A stretch of 38,539 nucleotides of DNA from a virus: positions 1 through 38,539 of the IMG/VR virus record IMGVR_UViG_3300007734_000667, one strand, 5' to 3'. Under the pieces are notes generated by a model, which was given only the letters and a program-made list of their open reading frames with translations, made no database searches and was not told the origin of the DNA. How positions within the stretch are numbered: position 1 is the stretch's first letter; each line of letters begins with the position of its first letter. Below are positions 1 to 37,930 of this stretch, one piece after another. Position numbers and translations under genes: made by a program.

Positions 1-144
1 AGGCCATCATCGAGACAATATCAAAGATTGTTCAAGACACTGTACCTATTGACACCAAAGATGTTATGGTAACTGACAAGAGTTCCACCGAGGGAGTATC
101 CGCCCTCGGTTCTAGCGTTCTCCCGAAAGTGGCGGGTACCGGAA
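1..144. repeat. Left copy of terminal overlap
   Basis: This stretch is repeated at the right end of the window with 5 mismatches in 144 bases (positions 12, 20, 56, 57 and 140). Both copies lie in the same reading frame of one gene, so the simplest reading is a circular or circularly permuted genome whose ends overlap. Two of the differences change Lys to Glu or the reverse, and the other three are silent. That fits true variants in a phage population better than random read errors. A genuine direct terminal repeat is the alternative. Confidence 0.9.
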
Positions 145-6317: not shown

Positions 6318-7421
6318 GTGGCCCAGACCCTCTTTGGTTCTGCCTATTTCGGCACGGACTACTTTGGGTCTGGGCCTACTACTTTCACGTACTCTGGCTC
6401 GGGTGGTGCAACTGCTGGTGGTGCTGCAACTACCAGTGTCCTTCACATCAAGTCGTACACCGGCTCCGGCGGCGGTACTGCTGGTGGTGCCGCTACTACT
6501 TCAGTCCTCCACATCAAGGCCTATACAGGTTCAGGTGGTGCAACTGCTGGCGGCGCTGCCACAACATCTGTCCTGCACGTCAAGGCATACGTTGGTTCTG
6601 GTGGTGCTGTTGCAGGTGGTGCAGCCACAACCCTTCTTTCTCGTACGTACACGTACGTCGGTTCAGGCGGTGCCACTGCCGGTGGCGCTGCAACAACCGA
6701 ATACCTGCGAGTCTTTAGTTATGTAGGCTCAGGCGGCGCTACTGCTGGCGGTGCCGCTGAAACTCTGTTTGTAAACATCCAAGAGTACACGGGCAGCGGT
6801 GGCGCAACTGCTGGTGGAGCGGCTACTACATCAGTCCTGCACGTTTACACGTACGCAGGGTCTGGCGGCGCTAACGCTGGTGGTGCAGCCGATACGGTTT
6901 TCAACAGGACTTACGAGTACGTTGGCAGTGGCGGCGCTACCGCTGGTGGAGCAGCCTCAACTTTTGTTCTGCATGTTTACACATATGCAGGAAGTGGTGG
7001 CGCTACAGCGGGTGGTGCTGCTGAAACGCTGTTCGTTCATATCTATGACTACACTGGTTCCGGCGGAGCGACCGCAGGCGGGGCGGCTACCACCTCTGTA
7101 CTGCACGTTAATTCGTATGTGGGTTCCGGTGGCGCTACCGCTGGCGGGTCTGCTGACGTTCTGCACATCAAGGTCTACGCAGGCTCTGGCGGTGCCACTG
7201 CTGGCGGCGCAGCGGTCGTGGTATGGGAACCAGCAGCGCCCGGTACGGTGGTTATCTACGATGTTCAGGTCAGTGGTTACGTCATGGTTGTCGAGACTTC
7301 CCCTACCGTCGAAGTACACGACACGTTATATGGCGGTACACTGAGTCTAGTAGATTTTGCCCCAACCGCTATGCTTTACGACATGGCTCTTGGAGGAACG
7401 GCGGTGCTGGTAGATGTCTAA
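6318..7421 (+). CDS. Thirteen-fold Gly/Ala-repeat protein, probable virion surface fibre
   Basis: A GTG start is set by GGAG eight bases upstream. The 367-residue product has a short N-terminal segment (LFGSAYFGTDYFGSGP). Thirteen tandem repeats follow, of about 22 residues each with consensus Y-x-GSGGATAGGAAxT-x-x-x-L-H-V-x-x. A non-repetitive beta-rich C-terminal domain of about 70 residues ends it. The repeats differ freely at synonymous codon positions while the GSGG/AGGAA core is kept, so the protein sequence is under selection. The repeat pattern suggests a stacked beta or polyglycine-helix rod. An AYFG-x-x-x-F-x-SGP segment also occurs in the tail protein at 17508. Role inferred: virion surface or adhesin. 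Confidence 0.7.
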   Translation: MAQTLFGSAYFGTDYFGSGPTTFTYSGSGGATAGGAATTSVLHIKSYTGSGGGTAGGAATTSVLHIKAYTGSGGATAGGAATTSVLHVKAYVGSGGAVAGGAATTLLSRTYTYVGSGGATAGGAATTEYLRVFSYVGSGGATAGGAAETLFVNIQEYTGSGGATAGGAATTSVLHVYTYAGSGGANAGGAADTVFNRTYEYVGSGGATAGGAASTFVLHVYTYAGSGGATAGGAAETLFVHIYDYTGSGGATAGGAATTSVLHVNSYVGSGGATAGGSADVLHIKVYAGSGGATAGGAAVVVWEPAAPGTVVIYDVQVSGYVMVVETSPTVEVHDTLYGGTLSLVDFAPTAMLYDMALGGTAVLVDV

Positions 7422-30563: not shown

Positions 30564-31406
30564 TTAGTCCTCCTCCTTCTTGGGCAACACGCCCATGTTC
30601 ACCAGTTGCTGCTCAACCCAAGCCTGCGCTCGGGATTCGCTCCAATCAGAACCAGATAGGATGCGTGGCATATACAGGTCGGCATCCGTCTTGACATCGC
30701 AGGGCGCACCGTACCCACCGCCGCCATCGCCAATGCGAACTGATTTTCGCACCGACCTCGGCTGCTGCTCCCAGATTGAGAACCCGAGGCGTCGCAGATA
30801 CGCAGGGTGCGCAGTTGCAAACGCAATCGCATCCATCTGCACCGGGTCGCCCGGATTCTTGATAGTGGTGTAAACAGGAATCGTGTGCCCGCCGCCAGCG
30901 GTGTTGACAACCACGGTCAGGCGCACGCGCCGACCGGACAACTCCAACAGGTCAGCGAGAGCAGCGACGGCAGCGCCACGAATCATGTACGTCTTGGAAC
31001 TAATCGAAGCAGACGCCGACACGTTGCACACAATGTCAATGATGGGCGACTCCATCTCTACGCGCTTGCGCATCACCATCGCATCTGGCAGCCCGGCATT
31101 GAACCGCCCGACGTTGACACCAGAGCCAGTGACAGAGCGTGTGTAAACGGGCTGGCCGAACGCCTCACGGTGAGCGTCCTCGACAACAGCCTTGAACTGG
31201 TAAGTCAGCGCCTCAATCGCTTCACGTCCTTCGGGCCAACCCTTGCGAGCGACTTCGATAGCGCCGTCAAAGCCAGTGTTGAAGTCCCACGTACTATTAC
31301 CACCCGTTCCCTTGGAACTACGGTACTCCTCCCTGCAATCAGTCGCTCCGTTCTCAGCGGCGTCGATAAACTCGTACAGGTTAGCGAACTTGACAACGTG
31401 TTCCAT
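30564..31406 (-). CDS. VWA-like protein, partner of MoxR ATPase (DUF7192-like)
   Basis: The 280-residue protein lies 1 base after the AAA ATPase gene. Its centre (residues 121-166) reads PIIDIVCNVSASASISS and then GAAVAALADLLELSGRRVRL, laid out like a von Willebrand A domain: strand, MIDAS-like DxSxS loop, helix, strand. The first MIDAS Asp is replaced by Asn (NVSAS, 128-132). The N-terminal part has FDGAIEVARKGWPEGREAI, which I associate with an actinophage family I remember as DUF7192. MoxR ATPases usually act with such VWA proteins in chaperone-like or metal-insertion complexes. A further GHT/KTD part follows. Confidence 0.7.
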   Translation of the reverse strand: MEHVVKFANLYEFIDAAENGATDCREEYRSSKGTGGNSTWDFNTGFDGAIEVARKGWPEGREAIEALTYQFKAVVEDAHREAFGQPVYTRSVTGSGVNVGRFNAGLPDAMVMRKRVEMESPIIDIVCNVSASASISSKTYMIRGAAVAALADLLELSGRRVRLTVVVNTAGGGHTIPVYTTIKNPGDPVQMDAIAFATAHPAYLRRLGFSIWEQQPRSVRKSVRIGDGGGGYGAPCDVKTDADLYMPRILSGSDWSESRAQAWVEQQLVNMGVLPKKEED

Positions 31407-31407
31407 G

Positions 31408-32544
31408 TTAGACAGCCCCCTTCTTCACAGCAGCCTGAACCTTCTTGGCATCAGCCACAGACATGCGCTCCCAGAACCGAGCGTCAGCGACCTCGCGCAG
31501 CGAGCCACCACCATTCACGATGAACTTGCAACCGTCGATGATTGCCCGAGTGCTAATCGGGATGCGAATGTCGAGCGACTCGGTAATGTTGCGCACTTCC
31601 AGCACCAGCGCGTACCAATCGTTGATGGTCTGGCGCTGCTTCTCGGTGGCAACAGCCGACCACGATGCGACGATGGACTGTTCGATGCCGGAGTCGTAGC
31701 CCCAGCGCAGGAAGTTGAAGCGGTCGAGCGTGGCACCGTCAATCTGCGAGCGCCCGATGTACACCGAGTCACGCCCCTGCCCGACAGTGTTGGCAGCGGC
31801 GATGCACCGGAAGTCAGGGTGCTTGTTTACACGCTCGTCACCAAAGAACGCGAACCCGTTGGCGAGCGCACTATTGATGGCGATGAGCGAATCGCCCGAC
31901 GCCGAGTCAATCTCGTCGATGAGCAGCACGCCGCCGTTCTTGTACGTCTCATAGAACGCACCGGGTACGAACGTGCCAGCCGCATTGTTGTAACCGAGCA
32001 GGTCATACTCAGCGGTCGTTGGGCCGACAGACTTGGCGCGGAAGTGTGGCAGCCCGAGCGCATCGCACGCAGCCTCAGCAGCAGCGGTCTTGCCAGTACC
32101 AGCAGGGCCAACCAGCCAGACGTTACAGCCAGCCTGCAACATGCGCAGCAGCCGGGGGAACTGCGCGTGCTGCACGCCCATGTCCTTCGGTGGTTCGTTT
32201 ACACGCGCCACCTCGACGCGAACCGGAGTGACAGCCCGAGCCTCAGCGCGTGCGACCTCGGCAACCTTGTCCCAGTCAGTGCCAGCAGCGCGCGCCTCGG
32301 TCTGCGCGATGCGAGTGACCTCGCTCCAGTCAAAGATGCCAGACAGGTGAGGCTTGATAGCCTCGATGATGACCTGCTCCAGCCCGCCAGCAGGTGCGGG
32401 AACAGCAGGTGTAAACACAACCTCAGCCTCAGTCACAGGTACCTCCTCCTTGCCGCGCGTCACGCGCGGGCACGCTTCGCCACCGGGATGGAACACTACG
32501 TTCGGGTACACCGAACACGCTTCGCACCGCCACGCCTTCGCCAT
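31408..32544 (-). CDS. MoxR-type AAA+ ATPase
   Basis: The 378-residue protein has an N-terminal CxxC ribbon (WRCEACSVYP, C at 25), a Pro/Ala/Glu-rich linker and an AAA_5/MoxR core. The core has Walker A GPAGTGKT (146-153), Walker B LLIDEIDSA (207-215), sensor AAANT and arginine-finger LDRF. It would remodel proteins with ATP, normally together with a VWA partner, here the next gene. ATG at 32544 is used because GGAGGAC nine bases upstream is inside the end of the SprT-like gene. The longer reading to 32589 overlaps that gene. Confidence 0.88.
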   Translation of the reverse strand: MAKAWRCEACSVYPNVVFHPGGEACPRVTRGKEEVPVTEAEVVFTPAVPAPAGGLEQVIIEAIKPHLSGIFDWSEVTRIAQTEARAAGTDWDKVAEVARAEARAVTPVRVEVARVNEPPKDMGVQHAQFPRLLRMLQAGCNVWLVGPAGTGKTAAAEAACDALGLPHFRAKSVGPTTAEYDLLGYNNAAGTFVPGAFYETYKNGGVLLIDEIDSASGDSLIAINSALANGFAFFGDERVNKHPDFRCIAAANTVGQGRDSVYIGRSQIDGATLDRFNFLRWGYDSGIEQSIVASWSAVATEKQRQTINDWYALVLEVRNITESLDIRIPISTRAIIDGCKFIVNGGGSLREVADARFWERMSVADAKKVQAAVKKGAV

Positions 32545-32548
32545 TTGT

Positions 32549-33151
32549 CTAGTCCTCCTCCTCGCCGCTTGCGACACTGACCGGGCCACGGCAATCCTCG
32601 TCCGGGCAAGTCAGCGTGCGCCCTTCCGCCCACTTCGCCGTGGTGCGGAACACGAACCCGCACTCCGAGCACTCGCACTTGAGCATGCGCGTCGTCTGCT
32701 TCTTCTTCTTGGCAGCAAGCGCCAGCCCGTCCGCACTCGGGTAGTCACCGAGGGACTGCGCGAGCAATGCGTACTCAGTACGCAAAGCCGCACCGGGCAC
32801 GCTCGCTTTCGGGTCATTGACATAACCCATGCAGAAGAACGCGCGCTGGAACATTTTGCCGTGCCCGCCCTTGCAGTCGAGCGCAGCGTGAATCAACTCG
32901 TGCCCGAGGATAGACAGGACATCGATAGCGTCGTGGATATCCACGCGCACGGTAATCTCGTTGATGCCGTCCGCACTAGCAGCGCGCGCCCACGTCTGCC
33001 CGCCAGTGCGCGTGCGCATCCCACCCGACGGCCAGCCCACGCCGATGCGCACTTCCGGCACGGACAAGTCAGTGCGACTGAACATTACCGTCCGCAACTC
33101 CGTGGCCGCAGCCTGTAGCCACTCCTCGCGCGTCTCGAACAACGTAGCCAT
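32549..33151 (-). CDS. SprT-like zinc metalloprotease
   Basis: The 200-residue protein has the zincin motif HELIH (84-88) followed by GGHGKMFQRAF (95-105), as in SprT/Spartan proteases. A C-terminal zinc ribbon follows (CECSECGFVF...CPDEDC). SprT-family enzymes cut proteins cross-linked to or trapped on DNA. AGGAGAGG before the ATG at 33149-33151 sets the start. A longer reading from 33220 begins inside a perfect hairpin and is rejected. It is the first gene of the SprT, MoxR, VWA-like group. Confidence 0.85.
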   Translation of the reverse strand: MATLFETREEWLQAAATELRTVMFSRTDLSVPEVRIGVGWPSGGMRTRTGGQTWARAASADGINEITVRVDIHDAIDVLSILGHELIHAALDCKGGHGKMFQRAFFCMGYVNDPKASVPGAALRTEYALLAQSLGDYPSADGLALAAKKKKQTTRMLKCECSECGFVFRTTAKWAEGRTLTCPDEDCRGPVSVASGEEED

Positions 33152-33183
33152 ATAGGTGCCTCTCCTATCTGCGCCCAATCCGG

Positions 33184-33228
33184 CGCGCGCCATGCTTGAC
33201 GGGAGGCAATCGTCAAGCATGGCGCGCG
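33184..33228 (-). terminator. Long GC-rich hairpin between early units
   Basis: An 18-bp perfect inverted repeat (starting CGCGCGCCATGCTTGACG at 33184) with loop GGAGGCAAT lies between the 33248 gene and the SprT-like gene. It would stop or reduce leftward transcription, or protect an mRNA end. No T-run follows. A GTTTACAC word lies 18 bases to its right. Confidence 0.7.
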
Positions 33229-33605: not shown

Positions 33606-33915
33606 TACGCGCGCCCTCTCCTGTAGCCTTAGCGATGGCGGCGTCAATCTCATCGAAAATCTGCCATCCGTCCGATTCGCCCACAGCGTCCTCGATGCAC
33701 TCGCGCGCACGAATCAGCGCCGCCAGTAGGTCGGGCGCTGCTGCGATGAGACGGGCGTTGGCCTCGTCCGTCGCCTCGTCATCCCCCCCAATGCCGGGGT
33801 ACATCGCGCATACCCACGTATCATCAGAGCCGATTAGAACTTCTGTGCCAGCGGGCCGCAGGATTTCCCGCGAATGGCCGATGACGTGGTAGCCCCACGG
33901 CCCCGGTGTGTGCAT
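33598..33915 (-). CDS. HTPGPW-family phage protein
   Basis: The 105-residue protein begins MHTPGPWGYHVIG and ends with EANARLIAAAPDLLAAL and a helix. This is a very common small phage protein with an N-terminal HTPGPW and C-terminal ANARLIAAAPDLL. Its function is unknown despite its breadth. The start overlaps the previous stop (TAATG). It serves as a family marker more than a functional clue. Confidence 0.85.
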   Translation of the reverse strand: MHTPGPWGYHVIGHSREILRPAGTEVLIGSDDTWVCAMYPGIGGDDEATDEANARLIAAAPDLLAALIRARECIEDAVGESDGWQIFDEIDAAIAKATGEGARNA

Positions 33916-34160
33916 TACGCTGCCTCATTTCCGCGCGCGCTCCCGCACGCCTTCAGGAACCGCGTCATATCGAAGTTGGGGTTAGCCTCGCGGAACATCT
34001 CCGCGAGCGCGTACTGGACTTCCTCGATTGCGCACTCGATACCTTGACGGTACGCGCGCTCACCCTCGCGGAAGTTGTCGGCGTAGTGATACGCGCGCTC
34101 GGCAGCATCGCGCAGCGCGTCGGCGCTTGCGACCATGTGCTGACGTGTAAACCTAGCCAT
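33915..34160 (-). CDS. Conserved small phage protein (MARFTRQHMVA type)
   Basis: The 81-residue product starts MARFTRQHMVASADALRDAA and ends NPNFDMTRFLKACG. I recall the MARFTRQHxxAxADALR...F-x-x-x-RFLxAC pattern from phage proteins that often sit near SSB and helicase genes. It is helical throughout. A GTGTAAAC word (34145-34152) lies within its first codons. Confidence 0.8.
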   Translation of the reverse strand: MARFTRQHMVASADALRDAAERAYHYADNFREGERAYRQGIECAIEEVQYALAEMFREANPNFDMTRFLKACGSARGNEAA

Positions 34161-34694: not shown

Positions 34695-35048
34695 CTAGAA
34701 CTTCTCGACCTGCGCGACCGCGACTGAACGATCCGCGAGCCCGTTCCACGATCGCGCAATCTTCCGCGCCCGCGCTGCGCGTGCGCGATCCTCGGCATTG
34801 TGGCGCTCGGCACGTACTGCCTCGCGCGCCTCGCGTGCCTTAGCCTCAGGCGTGATGATCCGCCCGCGCGTAGGCTTCACCGCCTCGCCGTTGACATAAA
34901 GAGTTCCCGGCGCGACTACGCGATCCCACACGATCCGTTTTGCGTGCGCGCGCGATGAACCCGCGCCCCGCTTAGCCTCGCGCTTCAGCATCGTCCCATG
35001 GTCGCGCGCAAGCGCTTCCCATGGGCGCAATGCGCCCTCTGTGAACAT
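34695..35048 (-). CDS. Basic Arg/Ala-rich early protein
   Basis: GGAGGAGGCATT right before ATG (35046-35048) gives a strong start. The 117-residue product is strongly basic, with a long Ala/Arg/Glu helix (AKAREAREAVRAERHNAEDRA) and segments RIVWDRVVAPGTLYVNG and GRIITPEA. DNA or RNA binding is likely by charge. No family is recognised. A RAARARKIARSW stretch near the end is echoed in the next gene. Confidence 0.7.
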   Translation of the reverse strand: MFTEGALRPWEALARDHGTMLKREAKRGAGSSRAHAKRIVWDRVVAPGTLYVNGEAVKPTRGRIITPEAKAREAREAVRAERHNAEDRARAARARKIARSWNGLADRSVAVAQVEKF

Positions 35049-35060
35049 AATGCCTCCTCC

Positions 35061-35135
35061 GAACAGCCGTTCCGAACAGCCGTTCTAGACGGCGCGCCAG
35101 TGTAAACAATGACGCGCGCGGTAGAACGTCCGTTC
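35061..35135. repeat. Three GAAC-N4-GTTC palindromes upstream of early genes
   Basis: GAACAGCCGTTC occurs at 35061-35072 and again at 35074-35085, 13 bases apart. GAACGTCCGTTC lies at 35124-35135, within TAGAACGTCCGTTCTA. A GTGTAAAC word sits between at 35100-35107. They precede the ribosome site of the 34695 gene and look like operators of the same family as the array at 35.5 kb. Confidence 0.75.
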
Positions 35136-35260
35136 TAGTCGGCTAGGTCGGCCTCGTACTCTGCGACATAACGCCACGTCGCAGCGATCTCTCGTGCCCG
35201 TGCCCGCATCGCGGGAGTGATGCGTCCCTTGCGGGTGGCGGCTTGGATCATCGCGTTCAT
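35135..35260 (-). CDS. 41-residue basic protein
   Basis: GGAGGAAACG before the ATG at 35258-35260 is a good ribosome site. The product starts MNAMIQAATRKGRITPAMRA and ends in REIAATWRYVAEYEADLAD. The helix RARAREIAATW resembles the C-terminal end of the next gene. The stop overlaps a GAAC-N4-GTTC palindrome. It is the first gene of the early arm after the repeat region. Confidence 0.6.
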   Translation of the reverse strand: MNAMIQAATRKGRITPAMRARAREIAATWRYVAEYEADLAD

Positions 35261-35505
35261 CGTTTCCTCCGATTGCCTCCGGGGTTCGGGGTTCGTTCCC
35301 CTCACCTCATGTACGTAGTATGCCATGAGCCCATAAGCCCCACAAGTAGTTATTGTCAAGTTAGGGGCGTTTTAACATGATGTTTACAATGTAAAATATC
35401 CGGGGCTTGGTGACTGGTTATGGTTGACACTTGTTTCTTTGTGTGGTAGGCGGTGTGGTTACATAACGGGCGGCACACACTTCGCCGTTACGCGCAACTC
35501 TCACG
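35261..35505. other. Non-coding leader region of the early arm
   Basis: The 245 bases hold no convincing gene. On the minus strand TTGACA near 35353-35358, with TTATGG 17 bases on, or TTGTGG with CATACT closer in, are weak promoter options for the early genes. ATGTTTACAATGTAAAATAT at 35381-35400 is AT-rich and palindrome-like, with near matches to GTTTACAC. A plus-strand TTGACA lies at about 35422 without a clear -10. Confidence 0.4.
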
Positions 35506-35759
35506 CTAACGTGCGCGTTAGAGCATATGTTCTAAACTAGAACATGTGTTCTAAACTAGAACGGATGTTCTGAAACCGAACGCATGTTCTAAATCAGAAC
35601 TAATGTTCTAAACCCTAACCTTGACGTGCGCGTGAGGGCGCGGCAAGTTTGTGTGTCAAAACGCGGTAGAACGCATGTTCTACTCAAACCCTGACGTAAG
35701 CGTTAGAACGTGCGTTCTAAATAACCTGTCGCTAGAACAAATGTTTAGAACATATGTTC
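35506..35759. repeat. Palindrome array: 19-bp-phased GAAC-N4-GTTC boxes with a second motif
   Basis: Nine boxes of the form GAAC-N4-GTTC start at 35521 (first half GAGC), 35540, 35559, 35578, 35597, 35669, 35706, 35735 (last half GTTT) and 35748. The first five are exactly 19 bases apart, and TCTAAA usually follows. A second palindrome family of about 16 bp, near CTAACGTGCGCGTTAG, lies at 35506, 35621 and 35691. The first and third of these share their last base with a GAAC box. Nearly all boxes fit the Gram-positive LexA pattern GAACRNRYGTTC. Phased, clustered sites in a non-coding stretch suggest an operator or origin iterons. Confidence 0.85.
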
Positions 35760-35820
35760 GTTGTCCCAAAAATTTACACGACATATTTTGCGAACTTGCC
35801 CTTGTCACATGTCAACAAGT
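35760..35820. other. AT-rich stretch beside the palindrome array
   Basis: A run of low-GC DNA (CCCAAAAATTTACACGACAT and following ATTTTG) lies between the GAAC boxes and the CACAGTT repeats. Next to phased repeats such a stretch could be an unwinding element of an origin. It contains ATTTACAC, one base from the genome-wide word. The plus-strand frame across it (35651-36013) is not convincing as a gene. Confidence 0.4.
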
Positions 35821-36023
35821 AACTGTGACGCAAGTGTGCTCGTCACAGTTCATCACACTTCCCGTCACAGTTCGTGGGCTAGTTACTAGACATAACGAAG
35901 TGTGCAAGTGTGATTCCCTATACTCGTGGAATCACAGCACAGTTCGTGAGAGGTTTTTCTTTGAAGTGATTGGAGGTGGCACACAACTTCGTTGTTGTGT
36001 GTGTGCCGCCTAGGAAGTGTGAA
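35821..36023. repeat. CACAGTT/CACACTT repeats and second copy of the two-part element
   Basis: AACTGTGACG (35821) pairs with CGTCACAGTT (35841), which recurs at 35863. CATAACGAAGTGTG (35891-35904) is the inverse of a word in the helicase gene. TGTGATTCC (35909) pairs with GGAATCACA (35928) around CTATACTCGT. CACAACTTCGTTGTTGTG (35982-35999) forms a hairpin with flanking GGC and GCC. Two 18-bp words here are identical to those at 26467 and 26532. The region is non-coding. Confidence 0.8.
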
Positions 36024-36061
36024 GACGAAGTGTGACGGAACAGTTCCCGTCACACTTCGTC
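36024..36061 (-). terminator. Hairpin over terS stop codon
   Basis: A 15-bp arm starting GACGAAGTGTGACGG pairs with 36047-36061, enclosing AACAGTTC. The terS stop codon lies in the right arm. It probably ends leftward transcription from terS, so the repeat region behind it would stay free of read-through. The same CACACTTCGT word recurs in the neighbouring repeats. Confidence 0.65.
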
Positions 36062-36490
36062 GATAAGGCTCTGCCTCAGTGCCTTGATGTCTTCGATGCT
36101 TGTTCCCTCTGGAATCTGGAGGGTAACTTGCCGTGCATCGACTAGTGGTTCGCGGAACTCGGGGAACCTCTTGGCTAGAAGGTTGAGAGCGGCAACTGCT
36201 GCGCCAAGCGTCTTGGGGCCACCCTCTCGGGCTTCCCTGACAATCTCTACACATTCGTTGATAATGTACTCAACGCTGCCGACGTTCCGTTCAAACGCTT
36301 CCTTTGTAGCAGCGGCTAGACGCTCCTTGACCAGCGGAGCCTTCTCGATGCGCTGGGCAACGATGGTGATCTGGTGGGCGTCTTGTACCTGCCCGCCAGC
36401 AGCCCTGTACGCGGCGGAAGGCTTCATCCCTTCAAGCCGTGCCTGAACGTATCGCTCTTGGAGTGGAGTGAGTTTAAGTCGCTTCGACAT
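36050..36490 (-). CDS. terS: Terminase small subunit
   Basis: The 146-residue protein begins SKRLKLTPLQERYVQARLEG, with an N-terminal helix-turn-helix (GMKPSAAYRAAGGQ), a central helical coil and a C-terminal beta segment (RQVTLQIPEGTSIEDIKALR). This is the layout of small terminases that recognise the packaging site. It lies beside terL but points the other way, which is unusual. No ribosome site precedes the ATG; instead TGTTAGATT, an extended -10, ends six bases ahead of it, so the mRNA is probably leaderless. Confidence 0.85.
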   Translation of the reverse strand: MSKRLKLTPLQERYVQARLEGMKPSAAYRAAGGQVQDAHQITIVAQRIEKAPLVKERLAAATKEAFERNVGSVEYIINECVEIVREAREGGPKTLGAAVAALNLLAKRFPEFREPLVDARQVTLQIPEGTSIEDIKALRQSLIDEV

Positions 36491-36535
36491 GGTTTAAATC
36501 TAACACTTTCAGTGTAAACCTGCTACAGTTCTTCT
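36491..36535. promoter_or_regulatory. Divergent leaderless promoter pair between terS and terL
   Basis: On the plus strand TG-C-TACAGT (36521-36529) ends six bases before the terL ATG. On the minus strand TG-T-TAGATT (36505-36497) ends six bases before the terS ATG. Each is an extended -10 (TGN-TANNNT) at the distance expected for a transcript starting at the ATG. GTGTAAAC (36512-36519) lies between them and would touch both if bound. No good -35 is visible. Confidence 0.55.
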
Positions 36536-37930
36536 ATGGCGACACTCACGAAAGAGGCTTCGATTGCAGCCCTAGACCGGCTGCTCTGCGAAAAGTCGTT
36601 TGTCGAGTTCCTTTCCTATATCAAAGTTCGCTCAGACGATCCGTACAATCCCGGTGCTGTCCCTTGGAAGAACTGGGACTACCTCATTGAGCGGGCTGAG
36701 GCGTGGGCTGAGGGGAAGTCTGAAGTCATCCTCAAGGCACGGCAGTTGGGAATGACGTGGCTGTTCGCTGCCTACGCTGACTGGTGCGCTCGGAACGGGA
36801 AGGCTGTCGGTGCCTTCTCCGCTGGTCAGGTAGAGTCTCGTGCCATCCTTGACCGCGTTCGGTACATCGAGGAGATGCTGCCTAAGCACCTTCAGTCTGG
36901 CGCTACTATCCGGTCTGACGACGCTACGTACCCGTCCGGTGGTTCTATTAGGGTCTTCCCGTCCACGGAACACGCCGGTATCTCCTTTACCTTCCAAGTC
37001 GTAGCGTTCGACGAGGCGCACTTCCACCCGTACGGCGCGCAGAACTACGCTGCTGTCCGGCCTACGCTTTCTGCCGGTGGTCAGTTCCTTATGTTCTCGA
37101 CCGCCGACCCGACGCTTGGCCCCAACGGATTCTTCCACGATATGTACTGGGCGTCGGAGCGCGGGGAGACGCCGTACACCTCTGTCTTCATTCCTTGGAA
37201 CGCCCGCCCCGGACGCGACGAGGAATGGCTTGCTCGTGAGAAAGCAGCGTTTACAGGACTGCCGGAGGAGTTCGATGCTTATTACCCGTCTACTCCAGAG
37301 TCTGCATTCGTCGCTCGGTCTGGTCTGGTCTTTCCTCAATTCTCTACGCTCAAGCACGTCAAACCCGCTGCTACTCCTCTTAGTGATTGCCGACGAGTCG
37401 TGGCAGGGGTTGACTTCGGAGGTGGTGACCCTACTGCGGTCGTCATCCTTGGACTCGACGCCGAACAGCGAGTCCATCAGTACGCCGAGTTTTACAAGCG
37501 AGGAAGCGTCGGAGTAGACCAGATTGGCGAGTTCCTCTGCCAGTTCCCAGTCGATGCCGTCATGTGCGACCCGTCGCAGCAGACTTCTATCGCCACTCTT
37601 GTAGGGACGTACAACCTCCCAGCCCGCAAGGGAGATAACCGGCGTGGCAACGGTCTTGGCCTTCTTGCCTTCCTCTTGGATAACGAACGGCTAACTATCG
37701 AACCGTCGAACATCCATTCCATCCAAGAGTTCCCCGGCTACCGCTGGGCCAACCGTACCGACCCTAACGACAAGACACGTTATGCAACGGCTACCCCGGT
37801 CAACAACCACGCCGACGCCATGGACGCCCGCAGGTACGCCGTCGCTGAGATTCTGGCAATGCTCATGCCGCGTAAGCAGATGCCTCGCCGTACACTATCT
37901 GGAACCCCGTTGAGTAGGAGTGCTGTTTAA
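36536..37930 (+). CDS. terL: Terminase large subunit
   Basis: The 464-residue motor has Walker-A-like LKARQLGMTW (about 66-75), Walker B VVAFDEAHFH (about 156-165) and an MFSTAD coupling segment. The nuclease domain has GVDFGGGDPTAVV, MCDPSQQTS and the C-terminal NNHADAMDARRYA, which supply the conserved Asp residues for two metals. It packages DNA into the procapsid and cuts it. It opens the late arm, with no ribosome site but an extended -10 just upstream. The packaging type cannot be told from sequence alone, though the permuted map fits headful cutting. Confidence 0.93.
   Translation: MATLTKEASIAALDRLLCEKSFVEFLSYIKVRSDDPYNPGAVPWKNWDYLIERAEAWAEGKSEVILKARQLGMTWLFAAYADWCARNGKAVGAFSAGQVESRAILDRVRYIEEMLPKHLQSGATIRSDDATYPSGGSIRVFPSTEHAGISFTFQVVAFDEAHFHPYGAQNYAAVRPTLSAGGQFLMFSTADPTLGPNGFFHDMYWASERGETPYTSVFIPWNARPGRDEEWLAREKAAFTGLPEEFDAYYPSTPESAFVARSGLVFPQFSTLKHVKPAATPLSDCRRVVAGVDFGGGDPTAVVILGLDAEQRVHQYAEFYKRGSVGVDQIGEFLCQFPVDAVMCDPSQQTSIATLVGTYNLPARKGDNRRGNGLGLLAFLLDNERLTIEPSNIHSIQEFPGYRWANRTDPNDKTRYATATPVNNHADAMDARRYAVAEILAMLMPRKQMPRRTLSGTPLSRSAV

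Follow-up and report, generated by a model that had tools for sequence, protein, structure and literature searches.

The analysed stretch of DNA, referred to here as the window, is a complete IMG/VR virus entry of 38,539 bp. It carries a gene for the terminase small subunit, terS (36050-36490, minus strand; 146 aa, with a leaderless-type start), which matches PHROG 51 (E 2.8e-12), and a gene for the large subunit, terL (36536-37930, plus strand; 464 aa), which matches PHROG 2 (E 8.9e-31). Profile matches identify both subunits in the relatives as well. The two genes are divergent, and their ATG codons at 36490 (terS) and 36536 (terL) are separated by a gap of 45 bp (36491-36535). This agrees with the arrangement described in an earlier note made from the letters of the DNA alone, called the sequence-only reading below. 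No TerL relative with more than 60% identity was found among 50,697 phage records. The ends of the window (1-144 and 38396-38539) overlap with 96.5% identity, the two copies differing slightly, and given this overlap the genome looks complete. Contig L002, which is 99.7-99.9% identical to the window, runs from the window end into the window start and thus spans the circular join; together with the overlapping ends this gives the order terL, two small genes, portal across the join. Elsewhere in the genome, a gene for a glycine- and alanine-rich repeat protein (6318-7421) contains internal repeats at 6380-7213, some of them offset by 66 bp.

Both start codons are preceded by an extended -10 box. 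On the terL side the sequence reads TGC-TACAGT-tcttct-ATG (box at 36521-36529, plus strand) and on the terS side TGT-TAGATT-taaacc-ATG (box at 36497-36505, minus strand). The boxes end exactly six bases before the ATG, as the earlier note had it, and the first T of each TANNNT hexamer lies exactly 12 bp before the start, compared with about 12 bp in known leaderless genes. The note had also described both genes as lacking a ribosome site, and indeed no Shine-Dalgarno (SD) match of at least 4 nt is present within 20 nt of either start. In-frame stops are found 7 codons upstream of terL and 2 codons upstream of terS with no intervening start codon, so that an upstream start is ruled out for both genes in the window, including the better one with a ribosome site that had been named as evidence against leaderless transcription. 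A sigma-70 scan made no call at the two putative promoters, which is expected because no -35 box is present.

The missing SD match by itself is not special and is weak evidence, since 10 of the 48 chosen gene starts of the window also lack a 4-nt match, several of these being doubtful start choices. A TANNNT hexamer 6 nt upstream occurs among the 48 starts at terS and terL alone; in one other TANNNT case, the gene at 33915-34160, TAGGGT abuts the start and is not in a promoter position. Counting both strands, 4 of 1034 ATGs are preceded by TGN-TANNNT at 6-7 nt, terS and terL among them. When the 45 bp were resampled 200,000 times with a first-order model, the motif appeared on both sides at 6-7 nt in a fraction of 1.5e-5.

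Searches for relatives yielded 16 contigs with TerL, 10 contigs with TerS and, in a later scan with a TerL alignment, 21 loci. The divergent order of terS and terL is kept in all ten contigs L002-L011, whose TerL sequences are at least 85% identical, and these contigs and the window contain seven distinct intergenic sequences. A pattern demanding both boxes at 6 or 7 nt was passed by 11 of 11 sequences (the window and L002-L011), none of which was dropped, with spacings of either 6/6 nt and 21 bp between the hexamers or 7/7 nt and 22 bp. The first T of TANNNT is located 12 or 13 bp from the start in all seven distinct versions. The sequence-only reading had proposed conservation of the TGN-TANNNT spacing as a check on itself, and the check was passed by both boxes in all seven.

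We compared 21 columns counted back from the end of each hexamer in the seven versions. The columns T, G, C, T, A and the last T are invariant on the terL side, and T, G, T, A and the last two T's on the terS side; outside the boxes, including the segment between them, no column is invariant. Five of the six invariant columns of each box were already required by the pattern, the additional ones being the C of terL and a T of terS, and the weight of the comparison therefore lies in the passing of 11 of 11 sequences and in the absence of any further invariant column. A pattern-free MAFFT alignment made beforehand showed the same six invariant columns for terL, while the terS side was blurred by indels. 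A scan of eight clade sequences (the window, L003, L005, L006, L008, L009, L010 and L011) for TGN-TANNNT-N6/7-[AG]TG opening an ORF of at least 60 aa detected terS or terL in every case. The 4-nt SD matches in the relatives examined were AGGT inside boxes of L004 and L005 and GGTG at terL of L006.

Between the two boxes lies the word GTGTAAAC (36512-36519, plus strand), as had been pointed out from the sequence. It is one of 27 copies in the window compared with 0.89 expected, and arithmetic from this density gives a chance of about 3% that a given 45-bp stretch contains it. The word is exact across 8 bases; its flanks are variable, and over 25 bases on each side they showed no conservation besides a weak purine preference just 3' of the word, on which ground a longer motif was rejected. 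At the terminase promoter GTGTAAAC is found in the window, L002 and L003, which share one identical sequence and hence one version of the seven. It is absent from the other six versions (L004-L011), of which L006-L009 carry GTGTAAAT there, overlapping the terS box. Since relatives that lack the word keep both boxes, it is not part of the conserved promoter and was rejected as a promoter component.

The distribution of GTGTAAAC was also followed across genomes. Four clade records contain 33 copies (7, 5, 8 and 13) versus none of the reversed control, and among six more distant records L031 has 5 versus 1, one has 1 versus 1 and four have none. The word is thus enriched in the clade and perhaps also in L031, and its positions turn over between relatives. 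Aligned words are kept above baseline in L010 (4 of 7, 1.6 expected) and at or below it in L009 (0 of 3) and L011 (1 of 4, 0.7 expected); new copies in the diverged relatives arise at sites that differ by several bases. The 22 copies inside genes are oriented 13:9 with respect to the coding strand, where avoidance of stop codons alone predicts about 3:2, and a stoperator-like site was rejected for want of an orientation bias. Neither GTGTAAAC nor GTTTACAC was found as a whole word in published papers; a Chi-like role as a host signal is conceivable. The word belongs to a genome-wide signal, and its copy between the boxes most likely sits there by chance; a word can thus be over-represented and lie within a promoter without being a component of it.

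At the other end of terS, a perfect 15-bp inverted repeat (36024-36061, minus strand) overlaps the stop codon and resembles a terminator hairpin lacking a T run. The fold of 36000-36075 has an energy of -34 kcal/mol (z -5.9; 0 of 200 shuffles), and a scan for T-run terminators called none after terS. By eye, the post-terS sequence of several of five relatives contains inverted repeats of other sequence. Beyond the hairpin of the window follows about 1 kb in which no genes were picked, a plus-strand ORF of 120 aa at 35651-36013 not being counted as a gene. Transcription of both arms from the terminase gap had been proposed to be under joint control. On the right side this fits the gene order, as terL is the first gene of a rightward run (terL-gp-gp-portal) through the circular join; on the left side the hairpin and the gene-free 1 kb leave joint control unsupported, and the left arm is probably served by promoters of its own.

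The noncoding stretch between the head of the left arm and terS contains ten GAAC-N4-GTTC palindromes at 35060-35760, and the window as a whole has 11 of them versus 0.77 expected. We take this palindrome to be a Gram-positive LexA-type box. Sets of 3-7 are present in the same stretch of L003, L006, L009, L010 and the outgroup contig L013; the L005 locus has none, and AACTGTTC is over-represented there instead. Among the part of the window's proteins that was scanned, no match to a Peptidase_S24 repressor (PF00717) was detected, and one small HTH protein (PHROG 686, E 6.7e-5) showed no link to GTGTAAAC. Further along the left arm (30564-33220), a DUF7192 protein, an AAA ATPase (PHROG 249) and a weakly SprT-like protein form a run; among 62 phage records matching the DUF7192 protein, 58 belong to Mycobacterium phages.

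The gene order of more distant relatives indicates how the divergent arrangement may have arisen. Eight distant contigs were examined as outgroup (L012, L013, L015, L016, L017, L031, L039 and L046); the count leaves out L014, which nearly duplicates L013, and two remote contigs, L047 and L048. terS (PHROG 51) precedes terL in the same orientation in 8 of 8, with another ORF between the two genes in L012 and L039 and with terS cut by the contig end in L015 and L017. Because of this uniform co-directional position, terS was probably inverted in the ancestry of the clade, and the divergent order of the terminase genes would be derived. As judged from gene order, the terS segment would have been inverted together with its promoter, giving the layout of the window. 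The outgroup starts themselves vary: terS of L013 has TTGACA, 16 bp, TACACT, 6 nt and ATG, which is leaderless-like without TGN, and terS of L016 has by eye an apparent leader with an SD-like site. A start of another gene has also switched type, since the L013 gene at 964 (minus strand) beginning MFTEGALRPWE has its ATG preceded at 6 nt by a TANNNT of leaderless type and its likely orthologue in the window (34695-35048) has an AGGAGG ribosome site.

To look at the geometry independently of genes, IMG/VR was scanned for exact matches to the two-box arrangement, with the spacers fixed at 6 nt and the gap at 21 bp. The scan returned 32 stretches, 5 from this clade and 27 from outside it. ORFs of at least 50 aa open from both ATGs in 16 of the 27 non-clade stretches, a count that includes near copies (14 of 22 as distinct sequences) and three cases in which one ORF runs off the locus; by our own grouping these divergent pairs represent about nine gene families. 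By comparison, among 113 CAT-N45-ATG pairs from 58 loci that are roughly non-redundant, 5 are flanked by two such ORFs (Fisher 4e-10), as is 1 of 17 non-clade stretches with the 7/7/22 pattern (4e-4). The 7/7/22 spacing, which part of the clade uses, is hence not enriched outside it. Most of the non-clade phages with the geometry have lower GC and may have other hosts.

Genes beside the non-clade stretches include TerL in two other groups, represented by L053 (PHROG 5989) and L059 (PHROG 38). By eye, TerL of L067 is like that of L059, and L062 is alike at the N-terminus with a best match to PHROG 15. The partner genes of TerL in L053, L059 and L062 matched neither PHROG nor Pfam profiles within the limits applied, and an identity as TerS is not assignable to them. 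Other flanking genes encode a gamma-glutamyl cyclotransferase, a RuvC-like resolvase, a ferritin-like protein and a 2OG oxygenase. The TerL-like ORF of L062 (3662-4861) diverges from the L059 sequence immediately behind ESGK, within the Walker A region, and has mixed PHROG matches; it may contain an insertion, for instance an intein.

A scan with variable gap, which required CATA at one end only, gave at least 120 stretches. Among the matches listed, covering 119 loci, two ORFs flank 37 of the 102 that are distinct, and these occur at many gap lengths (26 of 70 in an earlier count over 80 listed loci). The largest counts among the matches listed were at 29 bp (8 of 10) and at 13-14 bp (5 of 7 and 5 of 6), and at 21 bp 2 of the 3 listed matches are between ORFs, both from this clade. 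Back-to-back pairs of leaderless type thus recur, but the matches listed give no support to 21 bp as a privileged distance. We tentatively suggest, as an idea with less than even chances, that back-to-back leaderless promoters in a gap of about 45 bp are a recurrent compact expression module in phages of uncultured bacteria. It would have been reached on several occasions where the structural arm begins, with TerL at this position in this clade, in L053 and in the L059/L062/L067 group. In this clade the inversion of terS would have brought the two terminase subunits under a single site for which polymerases compete, so that their ratio would be fixed with no need for a regulator.

On the sequence, spacing, conservation and gene order described above, the 45 bp are probably best explained as two leaderless promoters for the host's sigma factor placed back to back. 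The proposed leaderless double promoter is thus supported by the spacing of the boxes, the missing SD matches, the uniqueness of the pair among the gene starts and the conservation of both boxes. The two would be separate promoters of the extended -10 type, without a -35 box, read by the main sigma factor. Each -10 box is placed so that transcription would begin on the A of the start codon or at most one base away from it, which would produce leaderless mRNAs for both subunits. The terL promoter would head the long rightward structural run, and that of terS would give a short transcript, probably ending at the hairpin after the gene. With the predicted start points at a distance of 46 bp from each other (49 bp in part of the clade), competition between two polymerases for the site is probable, which could tie the outputs of the subunits together; were this so, their balance would be set by promoter geometry alone. 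The model defines a precise position at which late transcription would begin and which can be tested, in a group of phages that lacks a close isolate. Scans of genome contigs with the TerL alignment and the capsid protein revealed no relative; an actinobacterial host is plausible.

Other readings of the locus were weighed against this one. Ordinary leadered transcripts could come from promoters elsewhere, the starts simply lacking SD matches, as other starts of the window do, and the boxes being incidental. We regard this as very unlikely, as terS and terL each occupy the DNA upstream of the other, the box positions are kept in seven versions while other columns vary, and the joint chance of the two boxes is very low. 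The full model of the sequence-only reading, in which a single protein bound to the central GTGTAAAC controls terS, terL and both arms together, draws on the strong over-representation of the word and on its position immediately in front of the terL box, where protein binding would obstruct polymerase. Both boxes persist in the six versions that lack the word, no column between them is invariant, its positions turn over, its orientation inside genes is near that expected from stop-codon avoidance, and terS ends in a hairpin; the single-protein model is not supported and we consider it very unlikely, although a GTGTAAAC-binding protein in this one species is possible.

A third reading, one strict bidirectional promoter with a shared symmetric -10 element as described by Warman, Grainger and co-workers, would likewise let one short sequence give divergent transcription with likely competition of polymerases. 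Such promoters share a -10 element and have divergent starts commonly 18 bp apart, also 10 and 23 bp (PMC12825309). Here, by contrast, the two -10 hexamers are separate, with 21-22 bp between them, and the predicted starts are 46-49 bp apart, which makes a shared element highly improbable. The likeness to these promoters consists in the very short stretch, the divergent output and the possible polymerase competition. Two separate leaderless promoters remain the preferred interpretation.

Among the literature titles listed, which come from searches outside subscription journals and are hence no proof of absence, none is on leaderless or divergent terminase promoters. Stoperator-type systems keep their site at the promoter, oriented with transcription; GTGTAAAC is missing from six of seven versions of the terminase promoter and has no such orientation. 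Like the stoperators described for cluster A mycobacteriophages (PMC9283540), GTGTAAAC is short and asymmetric and recurs throughout a phage genome; it differs in that it shows no orientation bias, its sites turn over, its flanks are not conserved and no repressor was found among the proteins scanned.

Leaderless TANNNT starts are already known, and terS and terL would be a phage example of that kind. TANNNT about 12 bp before the start codon has been described as the signature of leaderless genes in Actinobacteria and Deinococcus-Thermus (PMC3160421), and the terminase genes share its consensus, its position and the lack of an SD match; here it is found at a phage gene pair, the sole two such starts among the 48 examined. 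The account of M. tuberculosis transcription gives 26% of genes with a primary start as leaderless, associates the highest promoter activity with TGNTANNNT and reports the lack of any -35 motif (PMC3898074). Only 7% of the TANNNT motifs described there have TGN in front of them, whereas TGN is present in all versions of the clade. The same source calls closely juxtaposed divergent promoters common in M. tuberculosis and contains, with prpD (Rv1130) and Rv1129c, a divergent pair in which both mapped starts fall on the start codons (PMC3898074). This pair resembles terS and terL in orientation and in starts at the start codons, mapped there and predicted here, a likeness that leaves spacing and boxes aside; prpD and Rv1129c are cellular genes, whereas terS and terL belong to a phage.
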